From: Candidatus Tumulicola sp.
GTDB lineage: Bacteria > Vulcanimicrobiota > Vulcanimicrobiia > Vulcanimicrobiales > Vulcanimicrobiaceae
NCBI GenBank assembly: GCA_036490475.1
Contig: DASXDT010000006.1
Span: 806,001 to 870,000, forward strand
Reading direction: 5' to 3'
Length of the DNA stretch: 64,000 nt
Positions 13,750 through 25,241 of the stretch are shown here, piece by piece. How positions within the stretch are numbered: position 1 is the stretch's first letter; each line of letters begins with the position of its first letter. The translations under genes were made by a program, and so were the position numbers. The notes beneath the pieces were generated by a model. That model was not told the origin of the DNA, ran no database searches, and worked only from the letters and a program-made list of their open reading frames with translations.

Positions 13750-14607
13750 ATGGTTACGGCCGCGGCAACGCCGTCTCCCGACCCGTACGCTCTGTTTTCA
13801 CAGACGCGTTCGGCGGTGAGCGCGGCTCGATACCCGGGCCGGATCGATTATACGATCGACGTGAGCGGCTACGATGGGAGCGTCGCTAAAGCCAACCATT
13901 ATCAAGCAATCGACCGCGTCGCCGAGCAGTCGCTGAAGGTCGGCGCCATCAGCGCCGAAGAGAAGGCCGCACCGCCGATTCCGCAAGGTGTCAACGTCAA
14001 GTTCGTACTGGGAATTTGCTTTGGGGGCTGTGGCGGCATCGTCATCCCGATGGGCCGTCCGGTCGCGTCGCAAGATCTGCTCGGAGTTCCGCTGCTAACG
14101 CCCGCGTACACGTTCGGAATGCAATATCCACTAACGCGGCGCACCACGTCCCAAGCCGATGCCGACGTGGAAGGTCTGCCCGTCATCGCGGTCGTCGCAA
14201 CGCAGGCGCGCGATTACGCCATCGATTTTGTGGACGTGCAAACGATCGACGACACGCCGGTGTACCACCTCCGATTGACGCCGCTGCGAAATCCAAAAGA
14301 GAACCGGCTCCGTGAGCTATGGTCCGGAACCACCGACCATCTGCCACGCAGAGCGATCGTGGCCGGTAACTTTACCGTCGCACCGCTCGTCGACGTTCCA
14401 TGGACGATCGACTATACCGTGATCGACGGCGCGCCGTATATCCAACGCGAACGAGCCGACGCCGTGCTGTACATGCCGCATCGCCAAGTCGTGCGCGACG
14501 CACAAATCTCGTTCGAAGACATTCGCGAGGGTGCGGGATTTATGAACGAGCCGCTCATTCCGTCCGATGCAACCGATACTGCCCTAGAAGAGCCCGGCTC
14601 GCGCTAA
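13750..14607 (+). CDS. Hypothetical protein, possibly missing its signal peptide
   Basis: A 285-residue protein of predicted mixed beta structure. The N terminus (VTAAATPSPDPYALFSQTR) looks like the mature start of an exported protein just after a signal-peptide cut, yet the ATG at 13750 gives no hydrophobic leader. Upstream the frame stays open only about 17 codons, to a TAA, and contains no start codon or hydrophobic stretch. A Gly/Cys-rich hydrophobic loop (LGICFGGCGGIVIPMG) lies near residue 90. No family recognised. The gene ends one base before the convergent gene at 14609. Confidence 0.65.
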   Translation: MVTAAATPSPDPYALFSQTRSAVSAARYPGRIDYTIDVSGYDGSVAKANHYQAIDRVAEQSLKVGAISAEEKAAPPIPQGVNVKFVLGICFGGCGGIVIPMGRPVASQDLLGVPLLTPAYTFGMQYPLTRRTTSQADADVEGLPVIAVVATQARDYAIDFVDVQTIDDTPVYHLRLTPLRNPKENRLRELWSGTTDHLPRRAIVAGNFTVAPLVDVPWTIDYTVIDGAPYIQRERADAVLYMPHRQVVRDAQISFEDIREGAGFMNEPLIPSDATDTALEEPGSR

Positions 14608-16353: not shown

Positions 16354-17064
16354 ATGCTCTCACTGCGCAACGTCTCGCTTGTGTACCCGAACGGCGTGCA
16401 CGCTCTCGACAACGTGAACCTAGAAATCGCGAAAGGCGAGTTCGTGTTTCTCGTTGGCGACTCCGGGACCGGCAAATCCAGCCTGCTTCGTTTGCTCTAT
16501 CGCGAAGCGCGTCCGACATCCGGCGAGATTACGGTCGACGGAATCCGCGTCGATCGACTGCGCCGCAATCGCATACCGGCACTGCGCCGGCACCTCGGCG
16601 TCGTCTTTCAAGACTTCAAGCTGCTGGTCGACAAGACGGTCTGGGAAAACGTCGCCTTCGCCATGCAGGTCACCGGCGCGCACACGCGCGACGTCATGCG
16701 ACAGGTCCCGCGAGTGCTCGACCTGGTTGGGCTCGCCCACAAGAGCCGGATGTATCCCGGCGAACTTTCCGGTGGCGAGCAACAGCGGAGCGCGATCGCA
16801 CGCGCGCTCGTCAACAATCCGAAGATCCTGTTGTGCGACGAACCGACGGGAAATCTCGACCCGGACAACGGCAACGAAATCATGGAGTTGCTGTCTCGTA
16901 TCAATTTAAAAGGCACCACGGTCGTGGTGGCGACTCACAATCAATCCGTCGTCGATCGCATGCGCCGCCGCGTCGTCCGTCTCCAAGAAGGGCGCGTTGC
17001 AACCGACGAAGAGCGAGGCTACTATTACCTTGGACTGGGGCAAGGTCAAGTTCTTTCTGGGTGA
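16354..17064 (+). CDS. ftsE: Cell division ATPase FtsE
   Basis: A 236-residue ABC ATPase. Walker A is GDSGTGKSS, the Q-loop VVFQDFKLL, the signature LSGGEQQRSAIARAL and Walker B ILLCDEPTGNLD, all intact. FtsE with FtsX forms a divisome complex that transmits ATP hydrolysis across the membrane to activate peptidoglycan hydrolases. The Q-loop followed by FKLLVDKTVWENV is typical of FtsE rather than of other small ABC ATPases. The ATG at 16354 fits the family N terminus (LSLRNVSLVYPNGVHAL); the long upstream frame is antisense to the acyl-CoA dehydrogenase gene. Its 3' end overlaps ftsX by about 35 bases or more. Confidence 0.95.
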   Translation: MLSLRNVSLVYPNGVHALDNVNLEIAKGEFVFLVGDSGTGKSSLLRLLYREARPTSGEITVDGIRVDRLRRNRIPALRRHLGVVFQDFKLLVDKTVWENVAFAMQVTGAHTRDVMRQVPRVLDLVGLAHKSRMYPGELSGGEQQRSAIARALVNNPKILLCDEPTGNLDPDNGNEIMELLSRINLKGTTVVVATHNQSVVDRMRRRVVRLQEGRVATDEERGYYYLGLGQGQVLSG

Positions 17065-17911
17065 GGTGTTGCGCAACTTTACGCGCAACGCCGGGATGCA
17101 GGTGACGGCCATCGGGACCGTCGCCATTACCATCATCCTCCTCGGAACGTTTCTCTTCGTGCGTGCCGCGCTCGCCGGACTCGGCGGCCAGCTGCTCGAT
17201 CAAATAACGATTTCGGCAACGGTCGCTGGCAACGCTTCGGCCGCGCAGACGATCGCGCTACGGCGGTTGATCGCGACCGATCCGCGCGTCGCTTCGGTCG
17301 AATACATTCCAAAAGCAAAGGGTTGGGCCGATCTGCAACGCCGCTTGCGGGGGCAAATCGATACGTCGCTCATACCCGGCAATCCGCTGCCCGACGTCCT
17401 TCGCGTTCGTGCGCGGCATCCCGAACAGGTCCCGGCCGTCGCAGCAAACATCGGCCGGCTATCGGGAATTGGCACCGTCCGCTACGGGCATTCCGAGGTC
17501 GTCAAACTCTTACAGCTCGGCGACGTCCTGCGACGCATCGGCGTCGGAGTCATCATCTTGTTCTTTTGCGTGGCCGGTATCATCATCGCCAATACCATTC
17601 GCTTGACGGTGTTTGCAAGACGGCGTGAAATCTCGATCATGCAGCTCGTCGGTGCGACAAACTTTTACATCCGCGCGCCATTTATTTGCGAGGGGCTGTT
17701 GGACGGATTGGTCGGCACCCTGCTGGCGGTCGTCGTGCTCGGCATCGCTCGCGTAACCATTTGGCCAAAACTCGTTGCGGCGTTGTTGTTCATCCCGCTC
17801 AACTCGGTTTCGTTCGAACTCGGGCGGATGGTCGCCGAACTGTTCCTCGTCGGCGGTGCCGTCGGCATCGTCGCGTCGTGGATCGCCGTCGGACGGCATC
17901 TACGCGCGTAG
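17030..17911 (+). CDS. ftsX: Cell division permease-like protein FtsX
   Basis: About 293 residues with the FtsX layout: a cytoplasmic start (GEVLRNFTRNAGM), TM1 near residues 24-45, a large extracytoplasmic domain to about 170 (containing YIPKAKGWADLQRRL), then three more TM helices, the last ones flanking ARRREISIMQLVGAT. The extracytoplasmic loop is where FtsX contacts EnvC-type activators. There is no ATG near the expected N terminus; I chose TTG at 17030, which follows GAGCGAGG by about 11 bases, but TTG 16997 and GTG 17067 are alternatives. The gene overlaps ftsE and ends 4 bases before the M23 gene, so all three form one operon. Confidence 0.9.
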   Translation: MDWGKVKFFLGEVLRNFTRNAGMQVTAIGTVAITIILLGTFLFVRAALAGLGGQLLDQITISATVAGNASAAQTIALRRLIATDPRVASVEYIPKAKGWADLQRRLRGQIDTSLIPGNPLPDVLRVRARHPEQVPAVAANIGRLSGIGTVRYGHSEVVKLLQLGDVLRRIGVGVIILFFCVAGIIIANTIRLTVFARRREISIMQLVGATNFYIRAPFICEGLLDGLVGTLLAVVVLGIARVTIWPKLVAALLFIPLNSVSFELGRMVAELFLVGGAVGIVASWIAVGRHLRA

Positions 17912-17915
17912 CCGC

Positions 17916-19124
17916 ATGAGGGTTTTCCGCATGCAACGGCTGGTCGTCGCCGCAGCTCTCTTGGCATTGTGGTCGGCAGGCTCCGCCGCCGTTTGGGCGC
18001 AGCCGACGCTGCAGCAGCGTATCCAAAGTCAACGCTCGAAGGCCGAGCAAACGCAATCCCAGCTGCATGAGAAGCGCTCGCAGCTACACGTGGCGACGTT
18101 GCATTACAACGATCTCAGCCGCCAGCTCGGCGAAACCAACGATGCGATCGCAGGCGTCAACGCGCACCTCGACGGCCTGGCCGCCAGCGCGGCTTCGACA
18201 CAACGGCGCATCGACTGGAACACCGTGCAGTTGAACGCGGCGCGCAAGTCGCTTGCCTTACACGACACGATGCTCAAGCGTCGACTCGTCGACATGTACG
18301 AGAATGGCGACGTCAGTTACGTCTCCGTGCTGCTGGCCGCGCACTCGTTTAGTGACTTCGTCGAACGCTGGGACGATTTGCGGCTGCTCGTTGCCGCCAA
18401 CCAAAGCGTGGTGCGCGAACGCAAGAGAGCCGAAGCTCGCGTCGCTTCAGTCGAGCGCGACTTGGAGCGCACGCAGCTTGAGTTACAGCAAGAGCAGGCG
18501 GCGCAAGAACAAGCACGGACGCAACTGAACTCGTTGGCGTCGGAACGGCAAAACCTGGTCGTGCTCGCCTCGCAGCAGCGCCACCAAGTCGCCTCGCAAG
18601 TCGCTCAGATGGAAGACCTGTCGGCAGCCGAGGAAGCGCAGCTCGAGTCGTTGATTCAGGAACGCCAGCGTGAAATCGAGCAGCAGCGCCGTGCCAGCGG
18701 CATCGCTGAGGGCGGAACCGAGTCCAGCGGAGGCGGGACGGGAAGCTTTTCCTGGCCGGTAACCGGGCCGATCACATCCCCGTTCGGCTGGCGTTCGAGC
18801 CCGTTTACCGGTGCGCCCGACTTCCATCCGGGGTTAGATATTGCAGCCCCAACCGGCACTACCGTAACGGCGGCAGCCGGCGGCACCGTTATTATGGCAC
18901 AATGGTACGGGGGCTACGGCAACTATATTCTGATCGATCACGGCGGCGGCTACTCGACCGGCTATGGCCACCTTTCGGCCATGTACGTCTCAAACGGCCA
19001 AAGCGTCAAGCGCGGCCAGGCAATCGGCGCGATCGGCATGACGGGCGAAGCAACCGGGCCCCATCTGCATTTTGAAGTCAGAATTGATGGAAAACCGGTG
19101 GACCCGTCCCCCCGTCTGCATTAA
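17916..19124 (+). CDS. EnvC-like murein hydrolase (coiled coil plus M23/LytM)
   Basis: A 402-residue exported protein: signal peptide (residues 1-30, LVVAAALLALWSAGSAAVWA), a long coiled-coil region to about 265 rich in Gln, Arg, Glu and Leu, a Ser/Gly hinge, and a C-terminal LytM domain. The metal and catalytic residues are all there: His304 and Asp308 (HPGLDIA), His352 (GYGHLS), His383 and His385 (HLHFEV). E. coli EnvC has a degenerate site and only activates amidases, so this protein may cut peptidoglycan itself. It lies 4 bases after ftsX, which supports FtsEX control. Normal length. A hairpin follows before the next gene. Confidence 0.92.
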   Translation: MRVFRMQRLVVAAALLALWSAGSAAVWAQPTLQQRIQSQRSKAEQTQSQLHEKRSQLHVATLHYNDLSRQLGETNDAIAGVNAHLDGLAASAASTQRRIDWNTVQLNAARKSLALHDTMLKRRLVDMYENGDVSYVSVLLAAHSFSDFVERWDDLRLLVAANQSVVRERKRAEARVASVERDLERTQLELQQEQAAQEQARTQLNSLASERQNLVVLASQQRHQVASQVAQMEDLSAAEEAQLESLIQERQREIEQQRRASGIAEGGTESSGGGTGSFSWPVTGPITSPFGWRSSPFTGAPDFHPGLDIAAPTGTTVTAAAGGTVIMAQWYGGYGNYILIDHGGGYSTGYGHLSAMYVSNGQSVKRGQAIGAIGMTGEATGPHLHFEVRIDGKPVDPSPRLH

Positions 19125-19155
19125 GACTTAATCAGTAAACTGTTCCGGTAGAAAC

Positions 19156-19180
19156 CACTCACCCGGTTTTTCGGGTAGTG
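19156..19180 (+). other. Hairpin directly upstream of the first CTP protease ribosome site
   Basis: CACT-C-ACCCG, a 6-base loop GTTTTT, then CGGGT-AGTG: nine base pairs with one bulged C (bases 56-60 and 61-65 pair with 72-80 of the 191xx block). The hairpin ends immediately before AGAGGAG and the ATG at 19190. No T-run follows the stem, so it is not a standard terminator; it could be an RNA processing site or a translation-control element between the M23 gene and the proteases. Confidence 0.4.
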
Positions 19181-19189
19181 AGAGGAGAT

Positions 19190-20602
19190 ATGACGCTTCG
19201 TATTCGTGCGCTGATTGCGGCGCTTATCGTCGTCGCGGTTGCGGCCGCCGGCACGCTCTATATCCGCCAGCGCGCCGTCGCGAGCGCCGGTCCGAAAGGC
19301 GTAGACGTCGCCATGAACGGCGGCCTGGCCGACGTCTTGGGACAGCCGCCGCCCGATGGACCGCAATTAGCCCGGATGGCCGTACGCGATCTGCAAGAGG
19401 TGTATTACAAGCCGGTCGACGGCGCCGTCGTCGTCAAGGGCGAGTCGGATTCGCTGCGCGATTTTCTTCGCACGAAGCACGTCGCCAACGCGACGCTCGC
19501 CAACGACGCGGCCGGCTCCGATGAAGACCGGGCCGCCGAAACGCTGACCGGTGCGCAGGACCGCTACGCATCGTCACTCGGGCCTGACGGACGCAACCAA
19601 CTCAGCGAGGCCGCCCTGCGCGGCATCATGTCGTCGATGAACGACCCGTATACCGTGTTTCTTTCGGCGCGAGAGATTCAAGGTCTCAACGAGTCGCTGA
19701 GCGGCGGCAACTTCGGCGGGATCGGCGTCTACATCTATCAGCTCAAGGACGGGCGCGTGCTGGTGCAGCCGATCGAAGAACTGCCTGCCGCGCGTGCCGG
19801 AATGAAACCCGGCGAAGTGGTCGATACGGTCGACGGAACTCTCGTGCGCGGTTTGGCGCTCGACCGGGTCGAGCAGTTAATCCGTGGAGTAACGGGTTCG
19901 ACCGTCCGCATCACCGCTCACCAATATAACGCACCGAAAGCCGAGCGCACCTTTAACGTAACGCGCGAAATCATTCACGTTCCGTCGGTTCGCGCGAAGA
20001 TGGAAGACGGATACGATTACATCCGGCTGTCGGACTTCGGCCAAACTTCGGCCGAGGAAGTGCGCAAGGCGCTGGTAGACGGCGAACAACACCACGCAAA
20101 AGGTTACATCTTCGACCTGCGCGATAACGGCGGCGGTTTAGTCACGGCTGCCACGCAGATTTCAAGCTTGTTCGTTGCGCAAGGCCCGATCGTTTCGACC
20201 ATACAGCGCGACGGCCAGAAGACGACCGATTCGGCTCTCGGCGACCAACTGCCGGGTTTGCATCCGGTCGTCGTGCTGGTCAATAAATATACGGCAAGCG
20301 CGTCGGAGATTACGGCCGGAGCGCTCCAAGACTATCATTTAGCAACAATTCTTGGAACCAAAACCTTCGGCAAAGGCGTCGTGCAAACGATCATTCCGCT
20401 CGGGGGCGCAAACGCGCCGCTCGGCGCGTTCAAGATCACCACGGCGCGTTACGTGACGCCGCTGGGTCGCGACATCCAACATCGCGGCATCATGCCCGAT
20501 GTCGTCGTAAACCAAAGCGTCGATCCGGCTTTGATCGACACGCCTAACGATAAACAACTCGCCGCCGCAAAAGCCAAGCTGCGCGCGCTCTCGCAACGGT
20601 AA
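19190..20602 (+). CDS. ctpA: S41 C-terminal processing protease (first of two)
   Basis: A 470-residue membrane-anchored or exported CTP. Residues 5-25 form a signal anchor (IRALIAALIVVAVAAAGTLY). A PDZ domain lies near 170-250 (GGNFGGIGVYIYQL, then PAARAGMKPGEVVDTVDG) and the S41 protease core follows, with catalytic Ser370 in YTASASEI and Lys395 in TFGKGVVQ, the Ser-Lys dyad at the normal spacing of 25. CTPs trim or degrade exported proteins, including peptidoglycan hydrolases. The ATG at 19190 has AGAGGAG close upstream; GTG 19178 in the same frame is less likely. Twelve bases separate it from a second CTP gene. Confidence 0.93.
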   Translation: MTLRIRALIAALIVVAVAAAGTLYIRQRAVASAGPKGVDVAMNGGLADVLGQPPPDGPQLARMAVRDLQEVYYKPVDGAVVVKGESDSLRDFLRTKHVANATLANDAAGSDEDRAAETLTGAQDRYASSLGPDGRNQLSEAALRGIMSSMNDPYTVFLSAREIQGLNESLSGGNFGGIGVYIYQLKDGRVLVQPIEELPAARAGMKPGEVVDTVDGTLVRGLALDRVEQLIRGVTGSTVRITAHQYNAPKAERTFNVTREIIHVPSVRAKMEDGYDYIRLSDFGQTSAEEVRKALVDGEQHHAKGYIFDLRDNGGGLVTAATQISSLFVAQGPIVSTIQRDGQKTTDSALGDQLPGLHPVVVLVNKYTASASEITAGALQDYHLATILGTKTFGKGVVQTIIPLGGANAPLGAFKITTARYVTPLGRDIQHRGIMPDVVVNQSVDPALIDTPNDKQLAAAKAKLRALSQR

Positions 20603-20614
20603 GAACGAAATAGC

Positions 20615-21979
20615 ATGAAACGACTCTACAGCGCACTCGTCGTCGGCGTGTTTGCCGCGGCCGTCACCGCATTGCCGGCGGCATCGACGCTGGCCGCCTC
20701 CGGCGGCCTTTCGGCGGCGGACTCGACCGAAATTTCGACCGGTTATCAGCATCTGACGACCGATTTCTATAAGAAGGTCGACGACCAGACGGTTCTCAAC
20801 TCGGTTCGCGCAAAGTTGCTTTTCGCGCTCAAATCCTCCGGCGTCACGCACCCGTCGCTCGCTCCGATGCAATCGAACGAAGCGCCAGGGGCCAACGTTC
20901 GTACGATCGATCGAGCGATCGCGTCGGCGGCGGCCCAGAGCCACGGTAAGCTATCGGACCATCAAATGACGTATGCCGCGCTCGACGGGATGATGGGATC
21001 GGTCAACGATCGTTACACCGTGTTCTTAAATCCGAAGGAATATGCCGGGCTCAACGAAGATCTCGACGGGGGCGACTTCGGCGGCACCGGGATCGTTATT
21101 CAAATCGACGATAGTACGAAGTATATCTTGGTCGAAAATATCGTTCCCGATGGTCCGGCGGACAAGGCCGGCGTTCAACAAGACGATTTGATCACCGCGA
21201 TCGACGGCGTGTCGACGAAAGGCATCACCGTGCAACAAGCCAGCGCAAAGTTGCGCGGTAAAGAAGGCACGAACGTTTCGTTGACCCTCAGTCGCGACGG
21301 AGCGGCCCAACCTCCGCTCGCGATCACTCGCGCCAAGATTCACGAGTTGAGCGTCTACGAAAAAATGTTCCCCGGCAAAATCGGGTACGTCGAGCTCACC
21401 GTTTTCGGACGCGATACCGGTGCCGAACTCAACGCCGCGCTCACCCGCCTGCAACAACAAGGCGCTCGTGCGATCGTCATGGATCTACGCGACAACGGTG
21501 GCGGTTACTTAGACGCGGCCGTTGCGGTCAGCTCGAAGTTTATTTCCAGCGGGCCGATCGTGTCGGTCGAATCGCGGGCGTCGAACATCACGACGCTCGA
21601 TGCCGACGACACGGCCATCGATCCGCTGCCGTTAGTCGTTCTGGTAAATCAATACACCGCGTCGGCGTCGGAGATTACGTCGGGCGCGATTCAGGACAGC
21701 GGCGTCGGCACGATCATGGGGACCAAGACGTTCGGCAAAGGCGTCGTGCAGACGATCTTTCCGCTGGGCGCCGACGGATCGGCGATCAAGATCACCACGG
21801 CGCGCTACCTCACGCCGCATAACCGCGACATCAACCATCTCGGCATCAGCCCGGATGTCCCGGTTGCGGAAAACAAGCATCCGCAGTTCGGCGTTCCGGC
21901 CAAAGACGATCAGCTGGAGCACGCGCTGCAGTTTGTTACGCAAAAGATCGCACTGCTCAATAAAGAGAACGGCGTGTAA
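20615..21979 (+). CDS. S41 C-terminal processing protease (second of two)
   Basis: A 454-residue paralogue of the preceding protease. Signal peptide at residues 1-30 (ALVVGVFAAAVTALPAASTLAA), PDZ domain near 135-215 (GGDFGGTGIVIQID, DKAGVQQDDLITAIDG) and S41 core with Ser350 in YTASASEI and Lys375 in TFGKGVVQ. The two copies share the same motif strings around the active site, so they look like a tandem duplication, but the N-terminal 100 residues differ, suggesting distinct partners or localisation. The stop codon sits in the loop of a 12-bp hairpin (21964). It is the last gene of the ftsE operon. Confidence 0.93.
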   Translation: MKRLYSALVVGVFAAAVTALPAASTLAASGGLSAADSTEISTGYQHLTTDFYKKVDDQTVLNSVRAKLLFALKSSGVTHPSLAPMQSNEAPGANVRTIDRAIASAAAQSHGKLSDHQMTYAALDGMMGSVNDRYTVFLNPKEYAGLNEDLDGGDFGGTGIVIQIDDSTKYILVENIVPDGPADKAGVQQDDLITAIDGVSTKGITVQQASAKLRGKEGTNVSLTLSRDGAAQPPLAITRAKIHELSVYEKMFPGKIGYVELTVFGRDTGAELNAALTRLQQQGARAIVMDLRDNGGGYLDAAVAVSSKFISSGPIVSVESRASNITTLDADDTAIDPLPLVVLVNQYTASASEITSGAIQDSGVGTIMGTKTFGKGVVQTIFPLGADGSAIKITTARYLTPHNRDINHLGISPDVPVAENKHPQFGVPAKDDQLEHALQFVTQKIALLNKENGV

Positions 21980-21991
21980 ACGCCGTTCTCT
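21964..21991 (+). terminator. Perfect 12-bp hairpin enclosing the CTP stop codon
   Basis: AGAGAACGGCGT, loop GTAA, ACGCCGTTCTCT: the arms are exact reverse complements and the TAA stop of the second CTP gene lies across the loop/stem boundary. No T-run follows, so this alone may stabilise the 3' end; the classic terminator is 54 bases further on (22045). Confidence 0.6.
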
Positions 21992-22025
21992 CGGTTCCGC
22001 CGTGGGCGCGCGATGCGCTTGCGGA

Positions 22026-24680
22026 TTAGGCCTTTTTCTTCCGTGAAGACGCCGCAGCCGGCGTCTTCTTTTTCTTTGCGGCAGCCGGCTTTTTAGCGGT
22101 GGCCGATTTCTTGCGCTTGGGCGCGGCCGTCTTCGCCGGCGCGGCCTCGACCGGTTCGGCCGGAGCGGCGGCTTTGCGCGTGCGCTTCGGTTTCGCAGCG
22201 GGTTCCGGAGCCGGGAGCGCGGCAGGCGGGACGTCTTCGACCCGCGCCACCGCGGCGCGTGACGTGGACGCGCGCGGGCGGCGGGTAGGCTTTGCGGACG
22301 CAGGCTTTTCCTGGCGGGCCTTCAGGCTTGGAGGCGGGGGTTCGATGGCCGGCGGCGGCGATTTCGGGACGGGCGCGATAGCGCGAGACGGTTCGGCCGG
22401 TTCGGCCTTTCCATCTGACGCATTGCCGTGATCGGCATCCAACGGCGTCGCGCTACTACGACCGCCACGGCCGCGACGACGACGACGGCGTTTATGCCGG
22501 CCGTCGGCGTCGATTGCGGGCGTTTCGCGGTCCTGCGGCGGCGTCGCCGGCTCGGACGTACGCTCCGGACCGCTCTGCGCTTCGGGCGTTCCCGGCGTTT
22601 CGACGGTCCCGTTGCGACCACGTCCGCCGCGTCCACGGCGACGGCGGCGGCGACGGCGGCCGTCACCCTCGCCTTCGGTTTGTTCGGACGGCGCCGATCG
22701 TTCGGACGGGACCGATTGCTCGGGCAGCGCCGACACCTGTTCGGCGGCCACTTCGACCGAGCGGCGTTCGGCCATAGCGGCCTTATCTTGCCGTTCTTCC
22801 TCTTCGGTGACGGGGCTGATGCCGATCGGCGGGCGCGCACCGGCTTGGTGCGCCGCCTCTTCGGCTAGCTGGCGCAACTGCTTCGTTTCTTCGGCGGACG
22901 TCAGGTCGGCGCGGCTGCGACCGCGCCCGCGGCCACGACGGCGTTTTGCCGCCCCGCTGGCGGCCGTGACCAGTTCGGCCAATACGAAATCTTGTTCGTC
23001 GACATCGATAATGCGAATCCGGGCCGAGCCGCCGGCGTTGTTGGCCGCGTTCTCGACCTCGACGATGCGATTGCCGACGACCGCGGCAGCCGACGTCGGA
23101 TTAGGCAGGCGCCCCGCCAGCAATTCGACGTCTCGCTCGTCGCCGACTCGCACCGGTAGTTCGATGTCTTCGCGAATCGTTCGCGCGACGTCGATGCGTA
23201 TGTGCTCGGGATGGAGCATCGGGTCGACGCGGACTTTGATCGGGTGCGCCACCGACTGCGCCAACGTGCGACACTCTTCTTCGTACCAGAAGTCCATCTG
23301 TGCCGCGACCGTCGGAGCGACGTGCGCGACGACGTCGCCGGCGGCTGCGCCTTCGGCTCGATCGCGAATTTGGCGGAACGTTTCGATCGCCATCGATTGC
23401 GGCGACATCACGCTGCCCTGGCCGTAGCAGGTCGGACACGTGCCGCGCAGCTGCGCGCCGAGATCCTTACCGATTCGCTTACGCGTGAACTCGAGCAGAC
23501 CCAGATTCGAAAACGATTGAATGGTCGCGCGCGTGCGGTCGCGCCGCAATCCGTCTTCGAGCGTTTTGATGACCCGGCTGCGCGACGCTTCCGATGACAT
23601 GTCGATGAAGTCGACGACGATGATGCCGCCGATATCGCGCAAGCGCACTTGACGGGCCACCTCGGTGGCGGCTTCGATGTTGGTTTTGAGAATCGTGTCT
23701 TCGAGGTTACGGCCGCCGGTAAACTTTCCGGAGTTGACGTCGATGACGGTCAGCGCCTCGGTCGATTCGATGACGATCGATCCGCCGGACGGCAGATTGA
23801 TCTTGGGTCGCATGAGCTTCTCGATCTCTTCGTTAATCTTGAAGTCATCGAACAGCTTGCGGCCGCCTTCGTATTGCTCGATGCGCGCCAGATTTTGCGG
23901 ACCGAGCAGCTGTAGAAAGTCGCGCACCTTGCGAAACTCTTCTTCGTCGTCGATCAAGACCCGATCGACGTCGCCGGTGATGAAATCGCGCGCCGCCTTA
24001 AAGATCAAGTTCATGTCGCGGTGCAGCAGCGACGGGGATGCAGCGCGCTTGTAGGTCTCCAATATCCCGTGCCACATACGGATCAGCACGCCGAGATCGG
24101 CAATGAGTTCCGCCTCGCTCACGCCGGCGGCGGCGGTGCGTACGACCGTCGCCATGCCTTCGGGCCGAATGCGCTGCATTACGGTCTTGAGACGGTTGCG
24201 TTCTTGCGCCGATTCGATCTTGCGCGAAACGCCGGAGTATCGGCCGGTCGGCATTAGGATCAGATAGCGGCCGGGCAACGATATGTTGGTCGAGATGCGC
24301 GCGCCTTTGAGGCCGCGCGGCTCTTTAACGATCTGCACCAACACGTCGTCGCCGCGTTTGACTTTTTCGGAGATCGTGAAGCCGCTGTGGCCTTGCGTGA
24401 TCTCGACGTCGCCAATATTCAGCGGCTGCCGGTTGATGTCGTCGACGTAGAGGAACGCGTTGCGCCCCAAGCCGATATCGACGAACGCCGCGCCCATGCC
24501 GGGCAGAACGTTGTGTACTTTTCCTTTAAAGATCGAGCCGATAACTTTTTCTTCGCGCTCGACGTAGAGTTCGGCGAGTTGGCCGTCCTCAAGAATGGCG
24601 ACCCGGTTTTCCCAGGGGTCGCTCGAGATCAAAATCTCGCTCGACAAATTTTCCTCAACTCTTCGTGGCTGCGGTTGCAT
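22026..24680 (-). CDS. rng: Ribonuclease G/E with long basic C-terminal tail
   Basis: An 884-residue RNase E/G family endoribonuclease for rRNA maturation and mRNA decay. The S1 RNA-binding domain occupies about 40-130 (GSIFKGKVHNVLPGMGAAFVD), and the catalytic region contains VIDVNSGKFTGG and IVVDFIDMSSEA, the two Asp-bearing motifs. The zinc-link CPTC is near residue 416, so tetramer assembly of the RNase E type is likely. After about 570 the protein is a low-complexity tail with three Arg/Gly blocks (RRRGRGRGRSR and two RRRRRRGRGG-type blocks) and a Lys/Ala-rich end, suited to RNA binding or degradosome scaffolding. An intrinsic terminator of the opposite strand lies in the final codons. 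ATG at 24680 is the only good start; no clear Shine-Dalgarno. Confidence 0.94.
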   Translation of the reverse strand: MQPQPRRVEENLSSEILISSDPWENRVAILEDGQLAELYVEREEKVIGSIFKGKVHNVLPGMGAAFVDIGLGRNAFLYVDDINRQPLNIGDVEITQGHSGFTISEKVKRGDDVLVQIVKEPRGLKGARISTNISLPGRYLILMPTGRYSGVSRKIESAQERNRLKTVMQRIRPEGMATVVRTAAAGVSEAELIADLGVLIRMWHGILETYKRAASPSLLHRDMNLIFKAARDFITGDVDRVLIDDEEEFRKVRDFLQLLGPQNLARIEQYEGGRKLFDDFKINEEIEKLMRPKINLPSGGSIVIESTEALTVIDVNSGKFTGGRNLEDTILKTNIEAATEVARQVRLRDIGGIIVVDFIDMSSEASRSRVIKTLEDGLRRDRTRATIQSFSNLGLLEFTRKRIGKDLGAQLRGTCPTCYGQGSVMSPQSMAIETFRQIRDRAEGAAAGDVVAHVAPTVAAQMDFWYEEECRTLAQSVAHPIKVRVDPMLHPEHIRIDVARTIREDIELPVRVGDERDVELLAGRLPNPTSAAAVVGNRIVEVENAANNAGGSARIRIIDVDEQDFVLAELVTAASGAAKRRRGRGRGRSRADLTSAEETKQLRQLAEEAAHQAGARPPIGISPVTEEEERQDKAAMAERRSVEVAAEQVSALPEQSVPSERSAPSEQTEGEGDGRRRRRRRRGRGGRGRNGTVETPGTPEAQSGPERTSEPATPPQDRETPAIDADGRHKRRRRRRGRGGRSSATPLDADHGNASDGKAEPAEPSRAIAPVPKSPPPAIEPPPPSLKARQEKPASAKPTRRPRASTSRAAVARVEDVPPAALPAPEPAAKPKRTRKAAAPAEPVEAAPAKTAAPKRKKSATAKKPAAAKKKKTPAAASSRKKKA
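22045..22073 (+). terminator. Intrinsic terminator for the ftsE-CTP operon, inside the convergent RNase gene
   Basis: GAAGACGCCG, loop CAGC, CGGCGTCTTC, then TTTTT: a perfect 10-bp stem, tetraloop and T-run on the plus strand. It lies 66 bases past the last CTP stop and within the last codons of the minus-strand RNase gene, where it spells the Lys/Ala/Ser tail. This is the clearest terminator in the window. Confidence 0.85.
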
Positions 24681-24836
24681 GCGGGCGCTCGCGTTGTATT
24701 GCGAACGGCACTCGGCCTCGCGACCTACAGCTCAGGTCTAATTTCTAAATTTCTCCCGGCGGGTCTCGCGCGATACGCGCAGCCTCCGGCCGGTCGAAGG
24801 GGCCATTCCCGCCTGCCCGAAAGCGGACCTCCCATC

Positions 24837-25241
24837 ATGGTACCCACCTCCGCGCGCACAGCCGCCGCCGTTTGCATGGCAATTGTCGCACTCGCCGCCT
24901 GCGCTCGCACGGCGGCCCCGTCGCACGTCGGCGGCAACTACCGCGGCCGCCTGGAGGACGACACGTTGGTCGAAGCCTCGACGACGGTGATCGTCACCAA
25001 TAAGCCGGTGGTGATCGCGTTACGCTGCAACATCGTCGACGGGGCAATCGCCGCGGGCGACGATGCGACCATCGACCGAGCGGTCGCCGCTGGAGTGGCG
25101 GCCCGCATTCCGAGCGGTGTCACGCTCTACTCACCGCCCTTCTCGGCGCAAAACCCGAAGGGCAGTCCGCTCGTGGTGACCGACGACAAACGCGCCGGAA
25201 CCCTCTGCACGCCGCAATCCTACGACGTCGTTAAGTCGTAA
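24837..25241 (+). CDS. Small putative lipoprotein, unknown function
   Basis: A 134-residue protein with a lipoprotein signal: the hydrophobic stretch AAAVCMAIVALAACAR ends in a lipobox-like LAAC, giving Cys at about residue 21. The mature part is about 110 residues with TTVIVTNKPVVIALRCN and a second Cys near the C terminus (GTLCTPQS). No family recognised. The frame extends upstream to 24387, but that part is antisense to the RNase gene; ATG at 24837 gives the signal peptide directly. Divergent from the RNase gene (156 bases between starts), convergent with and overlapping the next gene by 22 bases. Confidence 0.7.
   Translation: MVPTSARTAAAVCMAIVALAACARTAAPSHVGGNYRGRLEDDTLVEASTTVIVTNKPVVIALRCNIVDGAIAAGDDATIDRAVAAGVAARIPSGVTLYSPPFSAQNPKGSPLVVTDDKRAGTLCTPQSYDVVKS

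Follow-up and report, generated by a model that had tools for sequence, protein, structure and literature searches.

Gene order at the junction

The window, a 64,000-nucleotide stretch of DNA (G000:C6:806001-870000) within a 3.3-Mb genome that also encodes Rho, contains a plus-strand run of genes, ftsE-ftsX-M23-ctp-ctp, convergent with a minus-strand gene for RNase E/G. The last gene of the run, a ctp, ends at 21979, leaving a gap of 46 nt to the RNase E/G stop codon (22026-22028 in the ORF reading of the window). Genes and hairpins referred to below are as follows (coordinates in the window, strand, identity):

16354-17064, plus: ftsE, start approximate (TIGR02673 above cut-off)
16997-17911, plus: ftsX (best NCBIfam score 2 bits below cut-off)
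17931-19124, plus: M23 peptidase with coiled coil, EnvC-like (profile search)
19178-20602, plus: S41 ctp, upstream of the next (profile search)
20615-21979, plus: C-terminal processing peptidase (S41, ctp; TIGR00225 above cut-off)
21964-21991, minus: hairpin H1, perfect 12-bp stem with 4-nt loop, across the ctp stop codon
21993-22032, plus: H2, a weaker tandem candidate, imperfect, covering the intergenic gap and the RNase stop codon
22045-22068, plus: putative terminator hairpin H3, perfect 10-bp stem with 4-nt loop, within RNase E/G codons
22069-22077, plus: U-tract TTTTTCTTT of H3, complementary to Lys codons (tail score 4.55)
22026-24680, minus: RNase E/G gene (TIGR00757, 479 bits against a cut-off of 326; PF10150, E 1.5e-100)

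These profile matches support the gene names used in the original prediction, RNase E/G (TIGR00757, PF10150) and the ftsE operon (TIGR02673). The coiled coil of the M23 peptidase is of the PcsB type, and the C-terminal tail of RNase E/G is rich in Lys, Ala and Arg, with final residues ...AKKKKTPAAASSRKKKA.

A hairpin and U-tract in the RNase E/G coding tail

H3 reads GAAGACGCCG-CAGC-CGGCGTCTTC at 22045-22068 and is followed by TTTTT at 22069-22073, exactly the stem-loop and T-run originally predicted. It was also correctly placed inside the last codons of the minus-strand RNase gene: in the ORF at 22026-24680 it occupies part of the final 16 codons, its first base being the 17th coding base from the end, and the codons beneath it, read backwards on the plus strand, are K-K-T-P-A-A-A-S-S, with the T-run on its 3' side the complement of RNase E/G Lys codons. 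H3 starts 65 nt past the ctp stop on the same strand as ctp, and thus presents three features of an intrinsic terminator: a stable GC-rich hairpin, a U-tract at its base and a position downstream of a same-strand gene. Evidence for selection beyond coding need appears at family level only, this single locus having about a 10% chance of carrying such a structure.

Folded alone, H3 has a predicted energy of -16.6 kcal/mol, and its outer pair is predicted with a probability of 0.945-0.995 in 21 of 21 combinations of context and length, regardless of where the 5' end was set. A fold of 22010-22090 preferred another structure; that piece cut the upstream hairpin H2 in half, and the fold z-scores of such 81-nt pieces are uninformative for this reason. 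The sense (minus-strand) reading of H3 also folds, and is then followed by ACGGAAG, which is not a U-tract. A single bidirectional hairpin is thereby ruled out, the minus-strand bases after H3 being ACGGAAGAAA, so that the same hairpin does not have a U-tract on both strands. A dispersed palindromic repeat or uptake-type element was rejected as well: a search of the genome allowing up to 3 mismatches returned the site itself and 4 others, each with 3 mismatches. Rfam scans rule out a known structured RNA, with no match above threshold in 17500-25000 (the sole sub-threshold match, E 0.56, lies elsewhere) and 0 matches at gathering scores in 124 kb.

Tandem hairpins across the junction

In the plus transcript from 21960 to 22080, H1 (21964-21991), H2 (21993-22032) and H3 (22045-22068) are predicted to form in tandem, with a total energy of -60.3 kcal/mol. 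H2 (-19.2 kcal/mol, with an internal loop) has its own TTTTTCTT at 22033-22040. On the minus strand, the bases past H1 are TTTATT (21964-21959), with a tail score of 3.2, barely below the cut-off of 3.3 used here. The original prediction described one hairpin; H3 is indeed there, but that account missed H1, which covers the ctp stop codon at 21964-21991 and leads into TTTATT. H1 could be a terminator, or the 3'-end hairpin, of the RNase E/G transcript, and it probably marks the end of that transcript as H3 would for the ctp run, with less certainty than H3. The ctp and RNase E/G genes may thus each carry the other's terminator.

Expected frequency at one site and across 464 kb

When synonymous codons in the last 80 codons of RNase E/G were permuted, 42 of 400 permutations produced a compact hairpin of 9 bp or more followed by a T-tract, and a codon-order shuffle of the RNase tail gave a comparable hairpin in 19 of 400. 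As a single locus, H3 is therefore near chance, at most mildly and weakly surprising.

The wider genome was sampled over 464 kb (G000:C6:606001-1070000), with 427 called genes and 60 convergent pairs. Compact hairpins with T-tracts numbered 39, compared with a mean of 35 in 12 runs of a Markov null, and H3 ranked 5th among the 39 by score. Stems of 10 bp or longer that pair perfectly around a 3-6 nt loop occurred 11 times, H3 and H1 (the longest) among them, and 5, 6 and 5 times in three Markov-shuffled versions. Because several of the top candidates are intergenic and lie about 40 nt 3' of a same-strand gene, some intrinsic terminators in the sample are probably real. Candidates within 120 nt after a gene end number 12 (among the 427 called genes), and 2 of the 60 convergent junctions have a hairpin with T-tract by our criterion; given this low count and the absence of an overall excess, the genome probably ends most transcripts by a mode other than intrinsic termination, and intrinsic terminators seem to be few in this GC-rich genome. 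When every gene end in the 464 kb was searched for an embedded terminator, the 277 codirectional ends had 0 and the 112 convergent ends had 1 (null 0.42; 73/200). That one hit is the H3 locus, whose RNase tail is also the most Lys-rich among gene ends with a convergent neighbour in the 464 kb.

The top-scoring hairpin of the sample, followed by T7, lies on the minus strand at G000:C6:964258-964285 (14258-14285 of region L216; -20.2 kcal/mol, TTTTTTTGT). It has no called same-strand gene for about 9 kb upstream and may end an unannotated RNA; L216 contains no Rfam or tRNA match.

Synonymous choice in RNase tails across the family

The family was represented by 99 genomes, 93 of them with a match. 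A first pass covered 61 of the 99. The first set contained 59 regions, 52 of which were usable (in the other 7 the contig ended ahead of the stop; L160 and L179, among the usable ones, are without a called neighbour). The second set contained 31 regions, 28 usable (L250 was excluded for a short tail, L251 and L252 for lack of a stop), for a total of 80 usable RNase 3' ends; three family genomes present as fragments only (G088, G098, G109) were left out. A hairpin was scored as embedded if its stem had at least 6 bp, its loop at most 8 nt, no more than 3 unpaired stem bases, dG of -9 or lower and a U-tail score of at least 3.3, with its centre no more than 100 nt inside the RNase stop. The null permuted synonymous codons among the last 42 RNase codons, and the criterion was fixed before the second set was read.

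Beside convergent neighbours, embedded hairpins number 22 in the pooled 47 loci, where the null gives 6.51 +- 2.20 (0/1000 permutations); with genus weighting the count is 4.93 and the null 1.88 (1/1000). Positives occur in 17 of the 47 loci and in 7 of 17 genera, and by the same criterion 30 of the 47 have none. Beside codirectional neighbours, 31 loci contain 4 against 3.14 (397/1000), in 4 loci and 3 of 17 genera. Compared by locus, 17/47 and 4/31 differ with a Fisher p of 0.020 that ignores relatedness, and many of the positives are closely related (genera g32 and g44). Lys content in the last 33 residues is similar, 8.0 for convergent and 8.5 for codirectional loci, so the difference cannot be put down to composition.

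In the first set, 26 convergent loci have 12 hairpins against 3.33 +- 1.60 (0/2000) and 24 codirectional loci have 4 against 2.25 (377/2000); the convergent count becomes 11 against 3.11 (0/2000) when the window's own locus is removed, and 10 against 2.98 (0/2000; genus-weighted 13/2000) when its genus is removed. In the second, 21 convergent loci have 10 against 3.16 (0/1000), from four genera only (genus-weighted 22/1000), and 7 codirectional loci have 0 against 0.88. Over the 52 loci of the first set, the excess is confined to the first 100 nt from the stop (16 against 5.8 expected), with none at 100-550 nt (6 against 4.8); the main threshold gave 16 in this count and 12 in the comparison of thresholds, because overlapping candidates were merged in different ways. 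Other thresholds applied to all 52 loci gave 10 against 2.6 (0/400), 8 against 3.75 (9/400) and 20 against 8.2 (0/400). A mirror control, in which the T-tract precedes the hairpin instead of following it, showed no enrichment (8 against 6.6; 135/400).

Outside the family, RNase tails in f3 are not Lys-rich. The class set comprised 16 regions, 15 usable (L255 is without a called neighbour). The neighbour is codirectional in 11 of the other 14 class/order loci; embedded hairpins were found in 0 of the 3 convergent and 0 of the 11 codirectional loci, a result that weighs neither way. The comparison within the family supports the view that synonymous choice in the RNase tails of this family favours a plus-strand hairpin with U-tract only beside a convergent neighbour. 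The prediction that the same bases are under two constraints gains from this family-wide bias the backing that one locus could not give it.

Close relatives and genus g32

A comparison of RNase tails in relatives for the same palindrome, the check originally proposed, bore out the position and form of H3 but not its sequence. In genus-mate G001 (region L142) the same place is taken by another stem, AGCGGCCGAAGCGGCCGCT, with TTTTTCTT after it, and the exact palindrome is not common to the relatives; inheritance of one palindrome in common with them is ruled out.

Genus g32 is represented by seven loci. Its RNase tail carries two plus-strand hairpins, and a further hairpin, of 15 bp, lies in the ctp tail. 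The RNase-tail stem GCCCCGC/GCGGGGC is kept in the seven, and the loop bases, mostly third positions of two codons, vary. For both RNase-tail hairpins together, third positions vary at 1 of 8 stem sites compared with 21 of 34 in the rest of the tail (one-sided Fisher 0.016); in L236 the stem of the second hairpin has one broken pair.

Hairpins in ctp coding ends

The 15-bp stem occupies the ctp coding end in the five g32 loci whose convergent ctp is intact, and H1 in the window is its counterpart. All 15 pairs form on the minus strand and 13 on the plus, two pairs being G-U on the minus strand. One of the five loci, L246, has two compensatory pair changes, with both sides altered; the covariation score of the stem, from five sequences only, was matched by 15 of 500 shuffles. 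The U-tract is weak in 4 of the 5 (TTCTAT...) and better in L235 (TTTATT). Across 46 loci, minus-strand stems of at least 10 bp in ctp ends number 17 against 11.1 (0/300) under a null that keeps stems lying in the intergenic part; genus-weighted, the figures are 6.4 against 4.13 (2/300), and the excess comes mostly from g32.

Where the gap is wider, some relatives (L163, L187, L189, L223, L240) have an ordinary intergenic terminator instead, which in L189, L223 and L240 is a single hairpin with a T-tract on each strand. It seems from these sequences that the junction calls for terminators and that, with little space, the coding ends can hold them.

Interpretation and alternatives

We consider it likely that 22045-22077 is an intrinsic (Rho-independent) terminator for plus-strand transcripts from ftsE-ftsX-M23-ctp-ctp, embedded in the coding tail of RNase E/G. 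RNA polymerase would run beyond the ctp stop codon, the 10-bp stem of H3 would form while the RNA exits the polymerase, and the U-tract complementary to the RNase Lys codons would free the RNA; we infer this release, its efficiency and its benefit. Antisense transcription of RNase E/G would thereby be confined to the final ~50 nt of the gene. Its Lys-rich tail would be the source of the U-tract, and the stem would be built by synonymous (and tolerated amino-acid) choices in Ala, Ser, Thr and Pro codons. The suggestion that a low-complexity tail was free to host a terminator is plausible, with the addition that the tail also supplies the U-tract through its Lys codons.

More tentatively, and with some doubt on our part, the embedding could be reciprocal: the ctp and RNase E/G tails would each hold the other's terminator by synonymous selection, the Lys-rich tail of RNase E/G being a ready source of U-tracts in a genome that is GC-rich and has few intrinsic terminators. 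The best case for this is genus g32.

A Lys/Ala tail in a GC-rich genome might instead yield an antisense hairpin and T-run by chance, as a by-product that terminates nothing. Such an origin would be in keeping with the 42 of 400 synonymous permutations that produce a comparable structure, with a 464-kb count that equals the Markov null and with the absence of the exact palindrome from relatives, but it does not account for a threefold family excess over the synonymous null that is found beside convergent neighbours only, at similar Lys content, nor for the unenriched mirror orientation and the conserved g32 stem, and we regard it as rather unlikely. The same enrichment bears on the idea that H3 acts in the sense RNase mRNA, for instance by blocking the 3' end or as a site through which RNase E/G regulates itself. 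The sense strand does fold, and enterobacterial RNase E autoregulates through its own mRNA, at a site in the 5' UTR; against this, the enrichment is tied to the direction of the neighbour and to a T-tract 3' of the antisense hairpin, and the sense reading continues into ACGGAAG in place of a U-tract, which together make a sense function very improbable.

Termination at the junction could also depend on Rho, with H1-H3 merely stopping 3' exonucleases and setting processed 3' ends. Rho is encoded in the genome, the sampled portion has few intrinsic terminators, and several junction hairpins in the family (including most g32 ctp copies) are without a good U-tract. Since a correctly oriented U-tract is part of the feature that is enriched, and that of H3 is strong, we judge this improbable and favour intrinsic termination at H3.

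Relation to known systems

Bidirectional termination has reportedly been observed genome-wide in E. coli by full-length RNA profiling. H3 resembles a standard intrinsic terminator in that, downstream of an operon's last gene, a GC-rich hairpin leads directly into a U-tract; it differs in lying wholly within the coding sequence of the opposite gene, where stem and U-tract double as codons. The putative terminator is of a known kind, and its placement is unusual, being double-coded in the tail of the facing gene and perhaps reciprocally so.

Bidirectional terminators between convergent genes are described in the excerpts drawn on here from work on TransTermHP (PMC1852404), Zymomonas (PMC7566282) and B. 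cereus (PMC5381666). The tail-to-tail genes and putative junction termination of the present locus are similar, as are the T-tracts on two strands in L189, L223 and L240; unlike the terminators in those excerpts, the window has two separate hairpins in or across both coding ends, neither serving both strands. In a rewritten Caulobacter genome, terminators inside neighbouring genes were noticed once those genes had been omitted, with 4 stem-loop and 7 Rho-dependent elements counted in the omitted genes according to the sections cited (PMC8144410). There, too, termination elements reach into a neighbour's coding sequence, but those sections contain no test of synonymous selection or of neighbour orientation. 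The convergent transcripts of the window, predicted from hairpin positions to overlap by ~115 nt, also recall overlapping 3' UTRs and the excludon (PMC7154746, PMC7821165) and convergent read-through in Rickettsia (PMC3027695). As those sources present them in the parts cited, such overlaps are long and arise from missing or leaky terminators, whereas the predicted overlap here is short and bounded by hairpins. Among the open-access papers searched, and at the level of search listings, none appeared to test whether synonymous selection maintains a terminator in the tail of an opposite gene.

If the preferred reading of H3 as an embedded terminator is true, coding and termination information would occupy the same bases on opposite strands, with codirectional relatives as a built-in control. 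It would then bear on how convergent transcripts are ended in compact genomes where only a few bases separate the genes, and on why 'silent' codons may carry information when they fall in a low-complexity tail. Annotation and recoding would be affected as well, in that terminator finders restricted to non-coding DNA would overlook such elements and synonymous recoding would erase them.

Other neighbours of RNase E/G in the family

A codirectional gene lies beside the RNase stop in 31 of the 78 family loci with a called neighbour (L144-L249), and many of these neighbours are 570-690 nt ORFs between RNase and ctp, indicating insertion or loss. In two g32 loci, L171 and L173, the plus-strand neighbour is a short ORF, and the ctp beside RNase looks broken, so that the ORF may be its remnant; that of L173 still has a long minus-strand hairpin of 14 pairs. 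In L193, the coding sequence of the convergent neighbour contains an unbroken 15-bp stem ~2-35 nt from its end, with no U-tract after the stem.
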